This document shows, in pieces, positions 14,653-23,378 of a DNA stretch of 64,000 bases (the stretch's first letter is position 1; every line of letters starts with the position of its first letter). The notes beneath the pieces were generated by a model. That model was not told the origin of the DNA. It worked only from the letters and a program-made list of their open reading frames with translations, and made no database searches. The translations under genes and the position numbers were made by a program. The stretch covers positions 186,001 to 250,000 of the forward strand of contig NZ_FTNR01000001.1 in assembly GCF_900156475.1 (NCBI RefSeq), given 5' to 3'. Source of the stretch: Natronorubrum thiooxidans. GTDB lineage: Archaea > Halobacteriota > Halobacteria > Halobacteriales > Natrialbaceae.

Positions 14653-15324
14653 TCAGTAGATCAGTTCGTCGTCGTTTTCGACCATGTACAACGTTCGAGC
14701 CGCGATGTTGACCGCGTGATCGCCGACGCGCTCTAAGTCCCGGATCGTCAACAGCAGTCGAGAGACGTCCTGAAGCAGCGCTTCGACCTCCTCGGGAGTG
14801 TCGAGTTCGCGCTCGATCAGGTCCCGAACGACGATCTCGCTCGCCCGCTCGGCGAACTGATCGAGGTCGTCGTCGCGGGCGGCAAGCTCTCTGCAGGCGT
14901 CAATGTTTTCGGTATCGTAGGCGATCATCGCGTCCTCGATCATCGCCAGCGTCAGTTCGCCCATCTCCTGGACGTCGACATCGGGAAAGAGGTCCTCTTT
15001 GGCGTCGAGGGTATACTCCCCCAGATTGACTGCGAGGTCGGCGATCCGTTCGAGGTCGGTGATGATCTTGAACGAGGCAGCGATAAACCGAAGGTCGCTT
15101 GCCACCGGCTGTTGAAGCGCCAACAGGTCGATACAGTCCTGCTCCAGATCGAGATACATCCGGTTGATCTCACCGTCGCCCTTGATCACCTCGTGGGCCA
15201 TTTCGTTGTCCTTCTGCTCTAGGGCGTCGAGCCCCATCCGAAGCCGCTCCATGACGACTTCACTCATGTAGAGGATGTCCTCACGGAGTTCCGTGAGTTT
15301 CTCTTGATATGATTTCCGAGCCAT
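14653..15324 (-). CDS. phoU: Phosphate transport system regulator PhoU
   Basis: 223 residues from MARKSYQEKLTELREDILYM. All-helical with two PhoU repeats, each with a metal-binding E/DxxxD signature: ITDLERIADLAVNLGEY (about residue 90) and IRDLERVGDHAVNIAAR (about 195). PhoU is a peripheral regulator of the Pst permease and phosphate signalling. The start is set at ATG 15324 rather than the longer frame, because the extra 14 residues overlap the intergenic region and are not PhoU-like. It lies 128 bp downstream of pstB, at the end of the pst cluster. Confidence 0.93.
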   Translation of the reverse strand: MARKSYQEKLTELREDILYMSEVVMERLRMGLDALEQKDNEMAHEVIKGDGEINRMYLDLEQDCIDLLALQQPVASDLRFIAASFKIITDLERIADLAVNLGEYTLDAKEDLFPDVDVQEMGELTLAMIEDAMIAYDTENIDACRELAARDDDLDQFAERASEIVVRDLIERELDTPEEVEALLQDVSRLLLTIRDLERVGDHAVNIAARTLYMVENDDELIY

Positions 15325-15452: not shown

Positions 15453-16337
15453 TCAGCCGAACTTGCCGGTGATGTAGTCTTCGACGCGGTCGTGTTCGGG
15501 GTTTTCGAAGATCTTGTCTGTGTCGTCGAACTCGACGAGTTCGCCGCCGGTCAGGAAGACGGCAGTCTTATCGGAGATACGGGCGGCCTGTTGCATGTTG
15601 TGGGTGACGATAACGACCGTATACTCTTCGGCGAGTTCCTCGATCAGGTCTTCGATCTTCGACGTTGCGACGGGGTCAAGCGCCGAGGCTGGTTCGTCCA
15701 TCAGGATCACGTCGGGGTCGGGCGCGATCGCACGAGCGATACAGAGTCGCTGTTGTTGCCCGCCTGAGAGGTCCAGCCCGCTCGAGTCGAGTTGAGCTTC
15801 GACCTCGTCGAGTAGCGCCGCGCGCTCGAGCGCTGTGTGAACTTTTTCGTCGACGTCACCGTCGTCTTTGCCCTGGACGCGGAGGCCGTAGGCGACGTTA
15901 TCCCGGATCGATTTCGGGAACGGGTTGGGTTTCTGGAACACCATGCCGATCTTCCGGCGCAAGGCGACGGGGTCGACGTCGTCGTCGTAGACGTTCTTGC
16001 CGTCGAACACGAGTTCGCCGTCGACATGGGCGGCGTCAACGAGGTCGTTCATCCGGTTGATCGAGCGCAGGAACGTCGACTTCCCACAGCCAGACGGCCC
16101 GATGACCGCCGTCACTTGCTTTTCGGGAATCTCGATGTCGACGCTGTCGAGTGCCTGCTCCTTGCCGTAGTAGACGCTCAGATCACGTGCCTCAAGGAGC
16201 GTCCGCTCTGTTGCTGACCGCTCACCAGTGTCTATATCGGTGCTGTCGGTGAGACCGTCGGTTCCCGGCGTCGGGGCTGGCTGGTCGTCGCTCGATTCCG
16301 TATCCGAGGACAGCAATTGTTCATCACTCATTGTCAT
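15453..16337 (-). CDS. pstB: Phosphate ABC transporter ATP-binding protein PstB (copy 1)
   Basis: 294 residues. An acidic low-complexity N-terminus (about 45 residues) precedes the ABC domain with Walker [11 protein letters not shown]-loop [12 protein letters not shown], signature [16 protein letters not shown], Walker [13 protein letters not shown] and the switch His in [15 protein letters not shown]. It couples ATP hydrolysis to phosphate import by PstCA. The start overlaps the end of pstA by 4 bp (ATGA), indicating translational coupling. A second, very similar pstB lies 3.9 kb away; the central ~190 bp is almost identical in the two. Confidence 0.95.
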
Positions 16338-17215
16338 GTTCGCTGTTGATAGCGGTTCCGGATGACGATCGCGATCGAGTTGATCGTGAGCAAGACGATC
16401 AGCAGCGTGACGACGCCGGCGGCGACGACACCGTACTGGAACTCCGTTTCAGGGTACGATGCCCAGGTGTAGATCTGTAGGGGCATCGCGCTGACCTTGC
16501 TTTCAAAGCTATTCGGAATGCCGAATACGGTTGTCGGCGCGGCGATCATGATCAGCGGTGCGGTTTCGCCGATCGCCCGTCCCAGCGCCAGGATCGTTCC
16601 GGTCATGATACCGGGCATCGCCCGTGGCAGGACGACGTTCCGGATCGTCTGCCACTTTGTCGCACCCATACCGTAGGAGGCCTGCCGTTGTGAGTCGGGG
16701 ACCGCGCGGATCGCCTCCTGGGCGGAGATGATGACGATCGGCAGGATGAGCAAGGCGACGGTAAATGCCGCGGCGAGTACCGTCCCGTATCCGAATCCGA
16801 GAAGACCCACGAACAGCCCCAGACCCAACAACCCGTAGACGACCGAGGGGACGCCCGCGAGGTTGGCGATGTTGAGCTGGATAAATCGCGTCAGGAGTCC
16901 GTCGTTGGCGTACTCCTCGAGGTAGACCGCGGCGCCGACACCGACCGGGAACGTGATCAACGCGATCAACAGCATGATCGCGATGGAGCCGACGAGTGCC
17001 GGCAAGAACCCCGCTTCGTAGGGGTCCGGATGCGGCGGACTCGTGATAAATCCCCAGTTGAGCCAGCCGACTGCATCGACGGCGACGTTGGCCAGCAGGG
17101 CTGCAAGCGAGACGATTCCAACGAGTGTCGCCGCAAGCGCCAGCAGGCGGAAGGCGACGTCTTTCGTCCGGCTAACCTGTCCGAAGTCGGTATCAGTGGG
17201 TGTGTCAGTAGCCAT
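16334..17215 (-). CDS. pstA: Phosphate ABC transporter permease PstA
   Basis: 293 residues with six hydrophobic segments and the BPD permease EAA loop, here [23 protein letters not shown] (about residues 190-213, in part). The N-terminus ([18 protein letters not shown]) is cytoplasmic and the last residues are basic (RNRYQQR). Forms the transmembrane pathway with PstC. It overlaps pstC by one base and pstB by four, so the genes form one operon. Confidence 0.94.
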
Positions 17216-18138
17216 TATCGATACTCCTCCCGGTAGCGCGATGCAACGAGTTCACTGACGAGGTTCATAGCGAAAGTGATAACGAACAGGGTGAGTCCGA
17301 CCGCGAAGAGACTCTTGTATGCTTCTCCCTGGCCGACAATGTCACCGGTCCCGATCTGGACCATCGCGGCGGTCATCGTCTGAATCGAGTTCAGGAACAG
17401 TCCTGCAGGATCAGTCACGTCGACCAGCCGCGGGGTCTGTCCCGCTGCGATGGCGACGATCATCGTCTCACCGATCGCTCGCGAGAGTGCGAGGATGAAC
17501 GATGAGAAGATGCCCGACACCGCCGCCGGAACGACGACGGATGTCGAGACGGTAAACTTCGTCGCGCCGAGGCCGTAACTGGCCTGCCGCAGGGAATCCG
17601 GAACGGCGCTCATCGCGTCTTCACTGATCGACGAGACCATCGGGATGATCATAATGCCGACCATGATCGACGCCGACAGTGCGTTGAACGTCGATAACGG
17701 CAGGAACGTATCCAGCGCCGGTGTGACGTAGACAAGCGCGAAGTAGCCGTAGACGACCGTCGGCACGCCCGCAAGCACCTCGAGCGCCGGCTTGAGGTAG
17801 GCTCGGCGGCGCTCGGAGGCGTACTCGCTCAAGTAGATCGCCGTCAGCAGGCCGATCGGGAGCGCAACGAGCGCCGACCCGACCGTGATGACCAGCGTCC
17901 CCGAAATCAACGGCAAGACGCCAAAGGCGACGGGTTCGTTCGTCGGGCTCCACCGCGTGCCGGTGAGGAACTCGACGAGCGAAATCTCCGCGAAGAAATC
18001 GACCGCGTCGACGAGCAGCGTTAGGATGATCGCGACGGTCGTCAGGATCGACAGCAGCGCACACAGCATGAAGAGGTAGCGAAACGCCTTCCCGCGTGCC
18101 GTCCGGATTCCGTCGTGGGAGAAGTCCGGTTGGCTCAT
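17215..18138 (-). CDS. pstC: Phosphate ABC transporter permease PstC
   Basis: 307 residues, six transmembrane segments. The cytoplasmic EAA-type loop is SYGLGATKFTVSTSVVVPAA, and SLVEFLTGTRWSPTNEP is the typical PstC external loop after the first segment. Partner of PstA. The start overlaps the stop of pstS by 4 bp (ATGA). Operon order is pstS-pstC-pstA-pstB-phoU in the direction of transcription. Confidence 0.95.
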   Translation of the reverse strand: MSQPDFSHDGIRTARGKAFRYLFMLCALLSILTTVAIILTLLVDAVDFFAEISLVEFLTGTRWSPTNEPVAFGVLPLISGTLVITVGSALVALPIGLLTAIYLSEYASERRRAYLKPALEVLAGVPTVVYGYFALVYVTPALDTFLPLSTFNALSASIMVGIMIIPMVSSISEDAMSAVPDSLRQASYGLGATKFTVSTSVVVPAAVSGIFSSFILALSRAIGETMIVAIAAGQTPRLVDVTDPAGLFLNSIQTMTAAMVQIGTGDIVGQGEAYKSLFAVGLTLFVITFAMNLVSELVASRYREEYR

Positions 18139-19112
18139 GCTGTCACCTCCTCAATTGCCTCCTCGAGTCGCTCGAGGTCCTCGTCGCGTTTCTCTTCGGT
18201 GATCGGGACGTAGCCGACCTCGGAAACGAGGTCCGTCGCGGCCCGTTCTATGTAGAAGCGAGTAAAGTCACGGACTGCCGGTTCCGCGAGCGACTCCTTG
18301 GCGACGTAGATGAACAGCGGCCGCGAGAGGGGCGTGTACTCGCCGGACATTGCCGTCTCGATCGACGGCTCGACGCATCCGTTTCCGTCGTCGATCGAGA
18401 CCGCCTTGATCGAGTTCGGATTTTCGCTGTAGAACGAAAAGCCGAAGTATCCCATCGCGACCTCCGATCCGCGAACGCCCTGGACGATCGTTCGGTCGCG
18501 TTCGGTCGCGTAGTAATCGCTTCGGTGGTTGACATCCTCGCCGAGGACCGCCTCGTTGAAATAATCGAACGTCCCCGACGTCGTGGCAGCGCCGTACAGT
18601 TCGAACTCTTCGTCGGGCCAGTCGTCGTTAATATCGCTCCAGCGCTCGGCACCGTCAGCGCTCCAGATCTCTCGGAGCTGTTCGACGGTGAGACAGTCGA
18701 CCCAATCGGCGTCCGGATTGACGACGACCGTCAGTGCGTCGGTCGCGACGGTGAGTTCTATCGGTGTAATACTATTTTTCCCACACTGTTCGATTTCGGC
18801 GTCGGCAATCTCTCGACTCGCGTTATTAATATCGGTTCGTCCTGCACAGAAGAAGTTCCCGAACCCACCACCAGTCCCAGTCTGACTGATCGAGACGTTG
18901 ATAGTCGGGTATTCTTCGGAGAAGGCGGAACCGATCGCCTCGGTCACGGGAAACACCGTACTGCTCCCCGCGATATTTACTTGGTCACCCTCCGTAGCGA
19001 GAATGCTGCTACAACCAGCGAGGCTGCCGGAGAGGGCAACGCCCGCCGCGGCGAGAAAATCACGCCGACCGACCGCGGTCGGCAGCGACGCCGTGGAATC
19101 TCTCGACATCAT
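18135..19112 (-). CDS. pstS: Phosphate-binding lipoprotein PstS
   Basis: 325 residues. The N-terminus has a Tat motif (GRRDFLAAAG), a hydrophobic stretch and the lipobox LAGC, so the mature protein is exported folded and lipid-anchored outside the membrane. Phosphate-binding features follow: VNIAGSSTVFPVTEAIGS, ISQTGTGGGFGNFF and TSGTFDYFNEAV, with the Ser/Thr/Asp ligands of the family. Two adjacent ATG codons (19112 and 19109) are possible starts. First gene of the pst operon; the upstream region holds a perfect 16-bp palindrome overlapping TATA-like sequence. Confidence 0.95.
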   Translation of the reverse strand: MMSRDSTASLPTAVGRRDFLAAAGVALSGSLAGCSSILATEGDQVNIAGSSTVFPVTEAIGSAFSEEYPTINVSISQTGTGGGFGNFFCAGRTDINNASREIADAEIEQCGKNSITPIELTVATDALTVVVNPDADWVDCLTVEQLREIWSADGAERWSDINDDWPDEEFELYGAATTSGTFDYFNEAVLGEDVNHRSDYYATERDRTIVQGVRGSEVAMGYFGFSFYSENPNSIKAVSIDDGNGCVEPSIETAMSGEYTPLSRPLFIYVAKESLAEPAVRDFTRFYIERAATDLVSEVGYVPITEEKRDEDLERLEEAIEEVTA

Positions 19113-19150
19113 CGAATCGAAGCCGCACTATAGGTAAGTAGACTACTATG

Positions 19151-19166
19151 ATTGCTATATAGCAAT
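19151..19166. promoter_or_regulatory. Perfect 16-bp palindrome upstream of pstS
   Basis: ATTGCTATATAGCAAT reads the same on both strands, 39 bp upstream of pstS, and its centre contains a TATA-like core. The surrounding 19113-19351 stretch between pstS and the second pstB is A/T-rich and holds no gene. The location suits an operator that would block or recruit factors at the pst promoter under phosphate control; this role is inferred. Confidence 0.5.
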
Positions 19167-19351
19167 ATATATTCTACAGAGTGCCCGGCAGCTAGAGAGA
19201 CGACGGCGAAATTACGCCGCTAAACCGTATGTATGACAATGGTTGCCGCTACGATCATCTCACTCGAGTGAATTCGATCGCTACGATAGTTGTGTGTCCA
19301 ATACGTAGCCAGGCATATATAGACAAAAAACCGATCGATCGTTCGGACGCT

Positions 19352-20215
19352 TTACCCGAATTTACCGGTGATGTAGTCCTCGACGCGGTCGCTTTCGGGG
19401 TTTTCGAAGATCTTGTTCGTGTCGTCGAACTCGACGAGGTGACCACCGGTGAGGAAGACGGCGGTCTTGTCAGAGATGCGGGCGGCCTGTTGCATGTTGT
19501 GAGTGACGATGACGACCGTGTACTCCTCAGCGAGGTCCTCGATTAGGTCCTCGATCTTCGACGTTGCGACCGGGTCGAGCGCCGAGGCTGGCTCGTCCAT
19601 CAGGATCACTTCTGGGTCGGGCGCGATCGCGCGGGCAATACAGAGGCGCTGCTGTTGCCCACCCGAGAGATCCAGCCCGCTCGAGTCGAGTTGATCTTCG
19701 ACTTCCTCGAGTAGCGCCGCGCGCTCGAGCGCTGTGTGAACTTTTTCGTCGACGTCACCGTCGTCTTTGCCCTGGACGCGGAGGCCGTAGGCGACGTTAT
19801 CACGGATCGATTTCGGGAACGGGTTGGGTTTCTGGAATACCATGCCGATCTTCCGGCGCAAGGCGACGGGGTCGACGTCGTCGTCGTAGACGTTCTTATC
19901 GTGGAAGTACAGGTCGCCATCGACGCGGGCGATGTCGATGAGATCGTTCATACGGTTGATCGACCGCAGGAACGTCGACTTTCCACAGCCCGAGGGCCCA
20001 ATGAGTGCCGTCACCTTCCGCTCTGGGATGTCCATGTTGACCCCGTGAAGTGCTTGATCGTCACCGTAGTAAACGTCGAGATCACGGGATTTGATGACGG
20101 CATTGTCGACGCGTGGCGAGCCCAGTGGCGCGTTGTCGGTCATCGTCGCGTCCGAACGCGAACCACCCGGGTCGGACGCCGATACGGATCGAGAGCTGCC
20201 GCCATTCGCAGTCAT
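19352..20215 (-). CDS. pstB: Phosphate ABC transporter ATP-binding protein PstB (copy 2)
   Basis: 287 residues with the full ABC set: Walker [11 protein letters not shown]-loop [12 protein letters not shown], signature [16 protein letters not shown], Walker [13 protein letters not shown] and the switch His. The N-terminal about 35 residues differ from copy 1 while the core is nearly identical at DNA level. It lies upstream of pstS on the same strand, 239 bp from it, so it may be expressed from its own promoter and supply the same PstCA. ATG 20215 chosen ([14 protein letters not shown]). Confidence 0.93.
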
Positions 20216-20324: not shown

Positions 20325-22052
20325 TCAGCCGTCAGTGTCGAGACTGGAATCGCCACTCGAGTCCGTCTCAGTGGCCGCCGGGTCGGCTCGTGGCAACTCG
20401 AAGACAACGGTCGCTCCCGTGCGGTCGGAGCCGTCACTGTCGATGCCCTCGGCACCGTTCTTCTCGACGGTATCGGCGTCGCCCGAGCCGACTGACGGAA
20501 TGGAGAGTTGGCCATCGTATCGGCTCACGATCCAGTCGATCAGCCACAGCCCAATCCCACCGGTGTGTGTCACCTGAGAGATCGCTCGGTTACCCGTGAC
20601 GATGGCGGCTTCGTCGGCGGGAATCCCGGGGCCGTCGTCCTCGACTCGAACACGAACGCGATCGGCCGTCGTCTCGACGGTGATGCCGACGGTCGGCTCC
20701 GGGCCGGCGTGGTCGGCGGCGTTCGCAAGCAGTTCGTCGATTGCCGCTTCGATCTCCGACCCACAGGCCGCGACAGCCTGTGCTGGGGCCGTGACGGTTA
20801 TTTCCGGACTCGTTGCGTCGTCCTCTCGTGTAGCAGTAAATTCCGCGACGCGGTCGCGAACGACGGCTGCGAGGTCTGTTCGTGGGACCGGTTCGCCCAT
20901 TGGATCGAGCAGGTCCTCGGTCATCCGCGCTCTGTCGGCCAACTCGAGCAACTCCGCCGTCGCCAGCCGGATCTCTCGGGCCGACGCTTGCTCGTCGGCC
21001 TCGAGGGCCGCTTCGAGATCTGCGGCATGCCCGGAGACGACGTTGAGCGTGTTCCGAAGGTTGTGTCGCAGGATCCGATTCAACACGAGCAGCATCTGTT
21101 CGCGCCGTGCCAGTGCGATCGACAGACGTTCGAGGGCGTCGTCGATACGTTGCCACTCCGGCGCGCCAGCGAGCGACGGGCCGTCGTCGTATTCGCGTCG
21201 CTCAAGCGCCCGGACACGATCGACGAGACGACCGATGTGGCGCAGTTCCGACGTATACACCCACGCGCCGAAGACCACGATCGAGCCGAGCAATGCGACC
21301 GCAGAGACGGCCTGAAAGAGTACGAGTCGGTTGATCCGTGCGTCGACGGCGTCCTGATCACGGTGGGCCGTTACCGTCCAGTCGACGACCTCGAGTGTCT
21401 CGCTATGGGAGACGGTCTCGTCGAACCGATCGGCCGTCGTATACAGCGTCCGATTACCGGCCTCGACGGTGATTGCGTCTCGGTCGTCGTTGCCGGCCAA
21501 CGAGTTGAACAAGCTCGTTTCATCGAGATAGTACGCACCGTTGACCGAGCCGACTACCTCGCCGTCGTCGACGAGCGGCGCACTGATGACGACAATCGTG
21601 TTTCCCGTCTGCGCGCGGAACGGATCGGTGATGTACTGCTCACCGTCCAGTGCCGCCTCGACGTACGCCTGCTCGCTGAGGTCCGTGCCGACGATGGGAT
21701 CGGTCTCGCGTACCGGCCTCGTCGTCGTAAACGACTGCACTGTTCCCGTTTCGTCGACCACCGTCGCGCCATCGAACACTGACGCCGAAACGAACTCCTC
21801 GAGTTCTCGGTCCTGACGACCCGTCTCGTGTTCCGCGAGATCAGGGTTGATCGCCGCGACGGCGACGGTTCGGCGTTGTTCTCTGAGTCGTTCATCGAGG
21901 ACCGACGCCGACAGGTTTGTCCGGTCAGCGACCGACGTTTCCGTACTCTCGTCGACCTCGGTTCGGTGTGCATCGAACGTGACGACGAGCACGCTACCGG
22001 CTACGAGAACGACGACGAGAAACACGATCCCGAACCGGTATGCGAGCCTCAT
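20325..22052 (-). CDS. Sensor histidine kinase with extracytoplasmic sensor
   Basis: About 575 residues from MRLAYRFGIVFLVVVLVAG. Two transmembrane segments (about 8-28 and 265-290) enclose an extracytoplasmic region resembling a Cache-type sensor (IVGTDLSEQAYVEAAL, VVISAPLVDDGEVVGSVNGAYY). A HAMP-like linker leads to the dimerisation helix with the phospho-acceptor His in LNRILRHNLRNTLNVVSGHA, then HATPase motifs ANAADHAG, EDDGPGIP and GIGLWLIDWIVSRY. No receiver domain is fused and no response regulator gene is nearby. Its place next to the pst genes suggests phosphate or envelope sensing, not proven. Confidence 0.88.
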   Translation of the reverse strand: MRLAYRFGIVFLVVVLVAGSVLVVTFDAHRTEVDESTETSVADRTNLSASVLDERLREQRRTVAVAAINPDLAEHETGRQDRELEEFVSASVFDGATVVDETGTVQSFTTTRPVRETDPIVGTDLSEQAYVEAALDGEQYITDPFRAQTGNTIVVISAPLVDDGEVVGSVNGAYYLDETSLFNSLAGNDDRDAITVEAGNRTLYTTADRFDETVSHSETLEVVDWTVTAHRDQDAVDARINRLVLFQAVSAVALLGSIVVFGAWVYTSELRHIGRLVDRVRALERREYDDGPSLAGAPEWQRIDDALERLSIALARREQMLLVLNRILRHNLRNTLNVVSGHAADLEAALEADEQASAREIRLATAELLELADRARMTEDLLDPMGEPVPRTDLAAVVRDRVAEFTATREDDATSPEITVTAPAQAVAACGSEIEAAIDELLANAADHAGPEPTVGITVETTADRVRVRVEDDGPGIPADEAAIVTGNRAISQVTHTGGIGLWLIDWIVSRYDGQLSIPSVGSGDADTVEKNGAEGIDSDGSDRTGATVVFELPRADPAATETDSSGDSSLDTDG

Positions 22053-22212
22053 TTGAACGTGCCCTGGTAGGCGGTACAAATAATGCCTGTATTATTCTTA
22101 CGGCACGTGACAAGTAAATCGAACGAACACGCAGTGCCGAGAGATTCGACCGAGAGTCGTGTTCGGCGATTCGACCGCCGTCGTGTACCCTGTCAAGGGT
22201 CGGCCTACATAT

Positions 22213-22237
22213 ATAGGAGTTAATATACATATCCTAT
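22213..22237. promoter_or_regulatory. Inverted repeat between the kinase and AbrB-PhoU genes
   Basis: ATAGGA (22213-22218) and TCCTAT (22232-22237) face each other across 13 bp in the 330-bp divergent intergenic region, which is A/T-rich and holds no gene. The AbrB-like domain of the adjacent protein would bind such symmetric DNA; assignment is inference. Confidence 0.3.
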
Positions 22238-22351
22238 CTTCCTGTGGATACCATCGATACAAAACTGATAGACAAACGGCAACAAAACTTACTCAGGCGT
22301 TCGAATAGTGACTACTCTCTGTTTATACTCGTCTCTATAGTGTGTGGTAGT

Positions 22352-22359
22352 TTTATAAA
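22352..22359 (+). promoter_or_regulatory. TATA box of the AbrB-PhoU gene
   Basis: TTTATAAA is centred 27 bp upstream of ATG 22383, predicting a transcript with no or almost no leader, the common haloarchaeal arrangement. It supports the start chosen for the downstream gene. Confidence 0.65.
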
Positions 22360-22382
22360 CGTCCACTCGAAAACCAAGCGAT

Positions 22383-23378
22383 ATGGAGACGCGTAAGGTT
22401 CAGGTAACGGGTGGCTCAACGTATACCGTATCGCTCCCGAAACCCTGGGCGACCGACAACGACGTCAGCGCCGGAACGGTCGTCGAATTCTATCCGGAAC
22501 AAGACTCCCTGCTACTGACACCACAACGGGAGTCCGACCGACAGGAGGGGACACTCGAGATTACCGATCTCAAAGGCGAACAACTCACTCGAGCCGTGAT
22601 GACGATGTACGTCAGCGGCTTCGATATCATCCGCCTCGAGGCGAGCCGTATCACGACTGACCAGCGCAGCGCGATCCGAAACGCCACACAGAGCCTCGTC
22701 GGCGTCGAAGTGCTCTCGGAGACGACCGACAGCGTCGTTATTCAGGATCTGCTCGACTCCTCCGAACTCTCGATCGTCAACGCCGTCTCGCGGATGCGCC
22801 TGATCGCGCGGTCGATGCTCGAGGACGCCGTCACCGCGCTTATCGAGAACGACGAGGACATTGCTGAGGACGTCATCGAACGCGACGACGACGTCGACCG
22901 GCTCTGGCTGGTCGTCTCGCGGATTTTCCGGGCGACGCTGCGCTCGCCGCGGGCTGCCGAGGAGCTCGGCGTTCCCAGAGAGGACTGTTTCGACTATCAC
23001 TCGAGTGCGCGCCAACTCGAACGCGTCGCTGATCACGCCGCCAAGATCAGCAAGCTCGCGCGCAAACTCGACGAGATCCCCGAAGACGTCGCTGATGCGC
23101 TCGTCGGCCTCCACGCGGACGCCTCGGACGTCCTCGAGAAGTCGATGGACGCGCTGGTCGCCGACGACACCGAGGAGGCGAACCGATTGGGACATGCCGC
23201 CCGCGAGGCCGTCCTCGAAATCGACGACCACACGCGGACGATCGACGACATGCTCCGGGGGCTCGACTCCGTCCAGGCGCAGTCGCTTGGGTTGATCGTC
23301 GACTCGCTCTCTCGCAGTGCTGACTACGGTGGCAACATCGCCGAGACGGCGCTCCAAAAGGCCGCCCCACGGCCGTGA
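22383..23378 (+). CDS. PhoU-domain regulator with N-terminal AbrB DNA-binding domain
   Basis: 331 residues. Residues 1-50 (METRKVQVTGGSTYTVSLPK, GTVVEFYPEQDSLLL) form a SpoVT/AbrB swapped-hairpin DNA-binding domain. The rest is helical with two PhoU-like repeats, including SARQLERVADHAAKISKLAR (about 205) and a degenerate SLSRSADYGGNIAETAL near the C-terminus. A DNA-binding PhoU can directly link phosphate state to transcription; this fusion is common in haloarchaea. Divergent from the sensor kinase and next to the pst genes, so it is the best candidate for the local phosphate repressor. Confidence 0.87.
   Translation: METRKVQVTGGSTYTVSLPKPWATDNDVSAGTVVEFYPEQDSLLLTPQRESDRQEGTLEITDLKGEQLTRAVMTMYVSGFDIIRLEASRITTDQRSAIRNATQSLVGVEVLSETTDSVVIQDLLDSSELSIVNAVSRMRLIARSMLEDAVTALIENDEDIAEDVIERDDDVDRLWLVVSRIFRATLRSPRAAEELGVPREDCFDYHSSARQLERVADHAAKISKLARKLDEIPEDVADALVGLHADASDVLEKSMDALVADDTEEANRLGHAAREAVLEIDDHTRTIDDMLRGLDSVQAQSLGLIVDSLSRSADYGGNIAETALQKAAPRP

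Follow-up and report, generated by a model that had tools for sequence, protein, structure and literature searches.

A haloarchaeal phosphate transport locus with a probable resident AbrB-PhoU regulator and an optional dCache sensor histidine kinase

Introduction

Do a sensor kinase and a DNA-binding PhoU protein, encoded face to face beside phosphate transport genes, form one regulatory switch? This question is raised by a locus of Natronorubrum thiooxidans (genome size 4.2 Mb), located in a stretch of 64,000 nucleotides (contig C22, 186001-250000) that is referred to here as the window. One strand carries the genes of a phosphate transporter (Pst) and of a histidine kinase; the opposite strand carries a gene for a protein that fuses an AbrB-like domain to a PhoU domain (AbrB-PhoU). 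A preliminary description of this DNA regarded the kinase and AbrB-PhoU as a phosphate switch that operates with no response regulator. Comparison with related genomes led us to a different reading: it is rather probable that this is a haloarchaeal Pst locus with AbrB-PhoU as its resident regulator and an optional kinase that signals to a receiver encoded elsewhere.

In bacteria, PhoR-PhoB works together with Pst-PhoU, and a histidine kinase is thereby tied to the Pst operon. In Haloferax volcanii, the relevant passage of a published study describes PhoU2 (HVO_2374) as a PhoU protein with a DNA-binding domain at its N terminus; it shares synteny with pst1, and a role in regulating phosphate uptake is predicted (PMC6267482). 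For Halobacterium salinarum, clusters pst1 and pst2, pho-boxes before pst genes, and PhoU regulators are mentioned in a passage of PMC6560208, citing Furtwangler 2010. Archaeal kinases with Cache domains are described, in the part of PMC5847659 that concerns them, as almost exclusive to Methanomicrobia.

Results

AbrB-PhoU was found in every genome searched, 125/125 in the family Natrialbaceae and 293/293 in the order. The kinase, whose orthologues were defined by identity of ≥48%, was found in 18 of the 125 family genomes; 11 further genomes had only matches of 30-36% identity. The kinase gene directly faced AbrB-PhoU in two of 14 pst-linked loci, those of the window and of L070, and pst genes intervened in the others. 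These distributions do not support kinase and AbrB-PhoU as a single receiver-free switch. The preliminary description had named conservation of the neighbourhood as a check, and on the genomic side the two genes were largely not co-localized in relatives. A conserved kinase/AbrB-PhoU pair was rejected, because AbrB-PhoU usually occurs without the kinase and none of 40 other AbrB-PhoU loci had it in the pst operon.

These 40 AbrB-PhoU loci, 20 from other families (19 genomes) and 20 from Natrialbaceae lacking a kinase of ≥48% identity, had no such kinase in the pst operon; in L199 and L203, weak kinase matches were located on the side of AbrB-PhoU, at a distance of ~5 kb. In the other families, pst genes lay on the divergent side of AbrB-PhoU in 18 of 20 loci (L202 and L205 had no divergent pst; L197 and L198 showed just pstB and phoU). 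In the kinase-less Natrialbaceae, pst lay on that side within ~3.2 kb, again in 18 of 20 (L216 had no pst there, L215 phoU only). The kinase was also missing from the pst operon in three kinase-negative congener loci, L087-L089. AbrB-PhoU faces pstB2-pstSCAB in kinase-negative genomes such as G105 (L088) as well, and its identity to the window protein was 90-91% in kinase-negative congeners vs 90-95% in kinase-positive ones.

Seventeen of the 18 kinase regions were examined: 14 were pst-linked and three (G110, G113, and G117) were unlinked. The eighteenth, from G036, is on a short contig; a metagenome-assembled contig taken as the same genome (L113) has the kinase followed by pstB. Ten of the 14 pst-linked loci had the kinase flanked by pstA and pstB. 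Nine of these ten had the order AbrB-PhoU, then on the opposite strand pstS, pstC, pstA, kinase, and pstB; the tenth, L081, had an extra pstB before pstS. The kinase followed pstA in L080, where no pstB was recognized, and was between pstB and phoU in L082. The window and L070 have it first, ahead of pstB2 and pstSCAB. Hosts of the pst-linked kinase include Natronorubrum sulfidifaciens, N. bangense, N. texcoconense, N. halalkaliphilum, Natronolimnohabitans, Salinadaptatus, and Natrialba swarupiae. The linkage was kept in five genera (six with L113), and the surrounding pstSCA varied, with ~40-60% vs 85-99% identity to those of the window. Among the named loci (80 of the 160 matched), the pst-linked orthologues were L106 to L113 and L117. 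L177, with phoU ~6.6 kb from a 33% identical kinase, was not counted as pst-linked.

A kinase tree was constructed from 20 sequences, 13 pst-linked and seven others, with midpoint rooting only; L113, L120, and L075 were not included. All 13 pst-linked kinases fell on one side of a branch with support of 96/96, and those of the window and L070 were nested among them. This topology suggests that the kinase probably joined the pst operon a single time in Natrialbaceae; its place there is mostly between pstA and pstB. Because the face-to-face arrangement occurs in two genomes only and their kinases are nested in the pst-linked group, it is most simply regarded as derived; it may have arisen by loss of pstSCA or by gene rearrangement. 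Relatives outside the pst clade adjoin unrelated genes, labelled from a reading of their sequences as tbp/hisG-like (Halovenus) and MutY-like (Natronosalvus). Another, separate case of a pst-linked kinase was observed in G096, where a quite different multi-PAS histidine kinase (L210, 1010-3697) lies directly behind pstA.

The statement that the window contains no receiver protein proved correct: none of 16 receiver (PF00072) matches in the host genome falls there. Each of 14 kinase-positive genomes examined had 13 to 36 such matches, so that absence of a neighbouring receiver is no evidence for a receiver-free system. Among the matches listed for 13 other kinase-positive genomes, a receiver ≤15 kb from the kinase was lacking in 12, a search that did not extend to G036, G110, G113, and G117; receivers at ~24 kb (G118), ~17 kb (G039), and ~37 kb (G041) were not counted as near. 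The idea that relatives share a conserved receiver within their pst loci was rejected, because among the matches listed only G104 of the 13 has one near the kinase. Near the unlinked kinase of G117, a 618-codon open reading frame (L083, 3930-5786) was seen by eye to resemble a receiver plus kinase.

The kinase gene occupies 20325-22052 on the minus strand. Its start had been placed at TTG 22079, nine codons too far upstream. MRLxYRF starts are conserved in relatives, and in L070 a stop codon immediately precedes the corresponding ATG; the start was therefore assigned to ATG 22052, giving a protein of 575 residues. HATPase_c was matched above its cut-off (55.2 bits), and dCache_1 scored 38.1 bits, below the Pfam cut-off of 45 bits. 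Of 20 family members, 19 matched dCache_1 at E values up to 0.01, all matched HATPase_c, and just three matched the HisKA model. The sensor region corresponded in Foldseek to the dCache domain of Bacillus KinD (4jgo, 4jgp, 4jgq, and 4jgr; template modelling score by target 0.75-0.77), and judging from sequence it is flanked by membrane helices. The family-wide dCache_1 matches and the resemblance to KinD bear out the extracytoplasmic sensor domain that had been claimed for this protein. The model of the whole kinase was of moderate quality, with predicted local distance difference test (pLDDT) score 74.1 and predicted template modelling score 0.42, and most of the sensor stretch was at pLDDT 80-93. 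H330 (the phospho-acceptor histidine, in a RILRHNLRN box) and the ATP-site residues N444, G474, and G476 were invariant in 20/20 aligned sequences. The kinase fell below the cut-offs of the PhoR equivalog models (TIGR02966, 46.3 of 334.2 bits; NF008235, 22.1 of 390 bits); the CreC model scored 81.6 bits, higher than the PhoR models and likewise below cut-off. On these sequence features the protein is classed as a dCache sensor histidine kinase.

AbrB-PhoU (22383-23378, plus strand) has 331 residues, comprising an AbrB-like part (~3-47), an alpha/beta part (~55-122), and a PhoU helical bundle (~131-327). Both halves of the predicted DNA-binding PhoU fusion were recovered above Pfam cut-off: PhoU with 76.3 bits (cut-off 23.5) and MazE_antitoxin, representing the MazE/AbrB domain, with 33.9 bits (cut-off 24.7). 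An AlphaFold2 model built with 24 locus sequences had a mean pLDDT of 84.9, and Foldseek matched the protein to the solved PhoU structures 1t72, 4q25, and 1xwm. In the model, the segment between the AbrB and PhoU parts (residues ~52-125; window 22536-22757) appears as a separate, well-conserved alpha/beta domain. Its domains and gene context make AbrB-PhoU a probable DNA-binding regulator with a link to Pst. The idea that it couples Pst activity to transcription stands to that extent; it is not new, having been proposed for HVO_2374 in the passage of PMC6267482 mentioned above.

The host has a second pst cluster (L009; C22, 426000-444000) with its own divergent AbrB-PhoU (L009, 10754-11749; 79% identical) and no kinase of the present kind between regulator and pst. 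A PAS kinase near this AbrB-PhoU was considered as a parallel to the window kinase. Proteins 65-68% alike to it over the core were located ≤5 kb from the second-cluster AbrB-PhoU in 4 of 15 relatives (L231, L234, L236, and L241); L237 and L242 had weak matches (27-31%), and the other nine had none. The second pst clusters of several relatives end, behind phoU, with a diverged AbrB-PhoU-like protein of 31-36% identity (L229 14130-14414, L231 2097-3038, L232 2486-3412, L237 14285-15226, and L240 13825-14595).

A P-box-like promoter element, TATATAGCAATCATAG, was found upstream of pstS (19146-19161, minus strand), where the preliminary description had recorded none. Its pattern, TATATANNNNNCATAG, had three exact sites in the host genome, one upstream of the window's pstS and two upstream of second-cluster genes, pstS and pstB, vs two for the reversed-pattern control. 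The two exact elements of L009 are those of its pst genes. Within the window, the exact site was accompanied by a one-mismatch site at 19166-19181, and the gap between the kinase and AbrB-PhoU genes had no match. In 61 family genomes, 104 sites were found in 59 genomes, vs 36 for the reversed control. At least 82 of the 104 lay ≤12 kb from an AbrB-PhoU gene on the list used, a lower bound because that list is incomplete; the other 22 did not. Before pstS of many relatives the element had the form TATATAnnnnnCATAGtrGgGTATTTA, and 33 of the 56 loci compared had the exact core in the 400 bp upstream of AbrB-PhoU. In kinase-negative relatives the exact element was present between pstA and pstB in six of nine gaps displayed (L087, L089, and L211 lacked the exact form); the gap of L210, displayed as well, has no pstB. 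In the kinase-positive loci L071 to L079, a looser, longer-spaced element was seen by eye between kinase and pstB; inspected in the same way, the window, L070, and L081 did not show it.

The kinase gene apparently has its own promoter element. The candidate, GCCGTAAGAATAATAC (22089-22104, minus strand), is AT-rich, lies 37-52 nt before the ATG, and is CCACAAnnATAAT-like in relatives. It was recognized by eye in most of the 14 pst-linked copies, with exact CCACAA in eight, and the three unlinked copies from Natrialbaceae did not show it. The putative AbrB-PhoU promoter (22335-22358, plus strand) consists of CTATAG at 22335-22340 and a TATA-like box at 22351-22358. CTATAG was present within the -65 to -30 stretch of 29 of 56 AbrB-PhoU genes, in a comparison in which the starts of L200, L220, and L223 were placed 1-5 codons late; many other genes, including those of other families, had TATAGA-like variants by eye.

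An inverted repeat in the gap, ATAGGAGTTAATATACATATCCTAT (22213-22237), had been suggested as the binding site of the AbrB domain. The repeat exists, in an AT-rich stretch at the position where most kinase-positive relatives carry the pstS promoter. As an operator it was rejected: 68.8% of 500 dinucleotide shuffles of the gap contained at least one perfect 6-bp repeat with a loop of 3-20 nt (mean 1.49, observed 1), which is chance level, and L070, the nearest relative, has not retained the left arm.

Both open reading frames, their strands, and the 303-bp gap between them agreed with the preliminary description, apart from the kinase start, and profile matches confirmed that pstB, pstS, pstC, pstA, and phoU adjoin. 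On the minus strand, the order in rising coordinates is phoU, pstB1, pstA, pstC, pstS, pstB2, and kinase, so that the kinase gene is read first. AbrB-PhoU, on the opposite strand, is followed by a minus-strand ribosomal protein gene (rpS8e, labelled from its sequence). The single pst locus contains two pstB genes, with pstSCA between them, of which the second had gone unmentioned: pstB2 (19352-20215; TIGR00972, 378.5 bits, cut-off 343.2), downstream of the kinase, and pstB1 (15453-16337; 377.8 bits). The gene for the phosphate-binding protein, pstS, extends over 18135-19112 (TIGR02136, 253.4 bits, cut-off 206.6). The two permease genes, pstC (17215-18138; BPD_transp_1, 56.7 bits) and pstA (16334-17215; 65.8 bits), were told apart by gene order and our own reading. 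An ordinary phoU without a DNA-binding domain (14653-15324) was given the MARKSYQ start of relatives; a 215-residue piece (14656-15300) scored 161.1 bits with TIGR02135 (cut-off 130.25). Among Natrialbaceae, pst cassettes appear to have been exchanged around a fixed AbrB-PhoU.

Discussion

The question posed by this locus has a fairly plain answer: the regulator is known, the synteny is ordinary, and the kinase is a modest lineage-specific accessory rather than a new kind of switch. AbrB-PhoU combines an AbrB/MazE domain, a PhoU domain, and synteny with pst, and is best classed from these traits as a haloarchaeal regulator of the HVO_2374 type already in print. Its architecture and pst synteny are those given in the passage on HVO_2374 (PMC6267482), and no difference was found in a comparison by description only. 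The host resembles H. salinarum, as portrayed in the passage of PMC6560208, in having two pst clusters, a conserved element before pst, and PhoU regulators; the likeness of the element to the pho-box is one of description only.

We suggest the following mechanism. AbrB-PhoU would read the state of phosphate or of Pst through its PhoU domain. Its AbrB domain, as domains and synteny suggest, would bind promoter DNA and thereby control pst and perhaps its own gene. Where present, the kinase would sense an external ligand and pass phosphate to a receiver whose gene lies in another part of the genome, providing a second cue for phosphate uptake.

Several observations weigh against the reading of a resident regulator with an optional signalling kinase. 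The AbrB part of the regulator (residues 1-50) was modelled at a pLDDT of only 39-65, with hairpin-like strands, and the Foldseek hits listed show only the PhoU part and no AbrB protein. The enrichment of TATATANNNNNCATAG is partly circular, because the pattern was composed by eye, partly from the host sites that it then recovers and with the promoters of many relatives already in view. PF00072 searches of the host and 13 relatives revealed no receiver partner for the kinase. The pst locus of G104 (N. halalkaliphilum) carries, between pstB and phoU, a receiver-PAS-GAF-kinase hybrid (L076, 10219-12114). At E values up to 1e-60 this hybrid has a sole match in the host genome, which spans the kinase core (53%, residues 418-626); the hybrid is thus not established as a shared partner. 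The kinase is missing from congeners G103, G105, and G106, and the G105 locus has the gene order of the window minus the kinase; it is thus dispensable. The copy in L075 (7375-9054, genome G099) is interrupted by an in-frame stop that leaves open reading frames of 191 and 313 codons, and may be a broken gene or a sequence error.

The last two points would also fit a kinase that entered the pst operon by chance and has a function unrelated to phosphate. Such a passenger would account for the patchy presence of the gene, for the unrelated neighbours of relatives outside the pst clade, and for the interrupted copy. We consider it unlikely, because the catalytic residues are conserved and five genera (six when L113 is counted) retain the kinase in their pst loci though the surrounding pstSCA differ.

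A PhoR-like kinase, whose membrane part monitors Pst/PhoU by contact, which drives a PhoB-like receiver encoded elsewhere, and which is the main phosphate sensor where present, is improbable to a greater degree. Ten of 14 pst-linked loci have the kinase gene flanked by pstA and pstB, and its catalytic core has weak similarity to PhoR models; both are consistent with such a role. However, the PhoR models scored far below cut-off and below the CreC model, itself under its own threshold; the large dCache sensor suggests an external ligand; and no kinase of ≥48% identity was found in 107 of the 125 family genomes. The window has in common with bacterial PhoR-PhoB a histidine kinase linked to the Pst operon; it differs in having no PhoB-like receiver in the locus, in the PhoR model scores, and in the presence of a separate DNA-binding PhoU. 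Direct action of the kinase on AbrB-PhoU (or on PhoU or PstB), by contact or phosphorylation, would suit the facing genes of the window and L070 and the lack of a receiver in the window and, among the matches listed, within 15 kb in 12 of 13 other kinase-positive genomes, but is very improbable given a regulator that is in most cases found without the kinase, is just as similar in genomes that lack the kinase, adjoins it in only 2 of 14 kinase-positive pst loci, and has no receiver domain that we could find, in genomes that each offer 13 to 36 receiver matches.

The kinase resembles KinD-type dCache kinases in sensor fold and catalytic core, and differs from them in being archaeal. It also differs from the archaeal Cache kinases as reported in the relevant part of PMC5847659, being haloarchaeal rather than methanomicrobial, and pst-linked. 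In searches of open-licence papers, no earlier report of a kinase in haloarchaeal pst operons was recognized. If the kinase were wired into Pst-PhoU signalling without a receiver, contacting or phosphorylating AbrB-PhoU, PhoU, or PstB instead, which we regard as most unlikely, haloarchaeal phosphate control would gain an external second input in a branch of the Natrialbaceae.

This unusual haloarchaeal dCache kinase has a stable genomic context, which allows a search, guided by a definite hypothesis, for its signal and for a partner from the 13 to 36 receiver matches of each genome examined. The pst promoter element makes the operator of AbrB-PhoU easy to test. The congeners form a natural experiment, having similar pst operons with and without the kinase, G105 being the window order minus the kinase; they allow a direct test of what the addition of a histidine kinase does to an archaeal one-component phosphate regulator.

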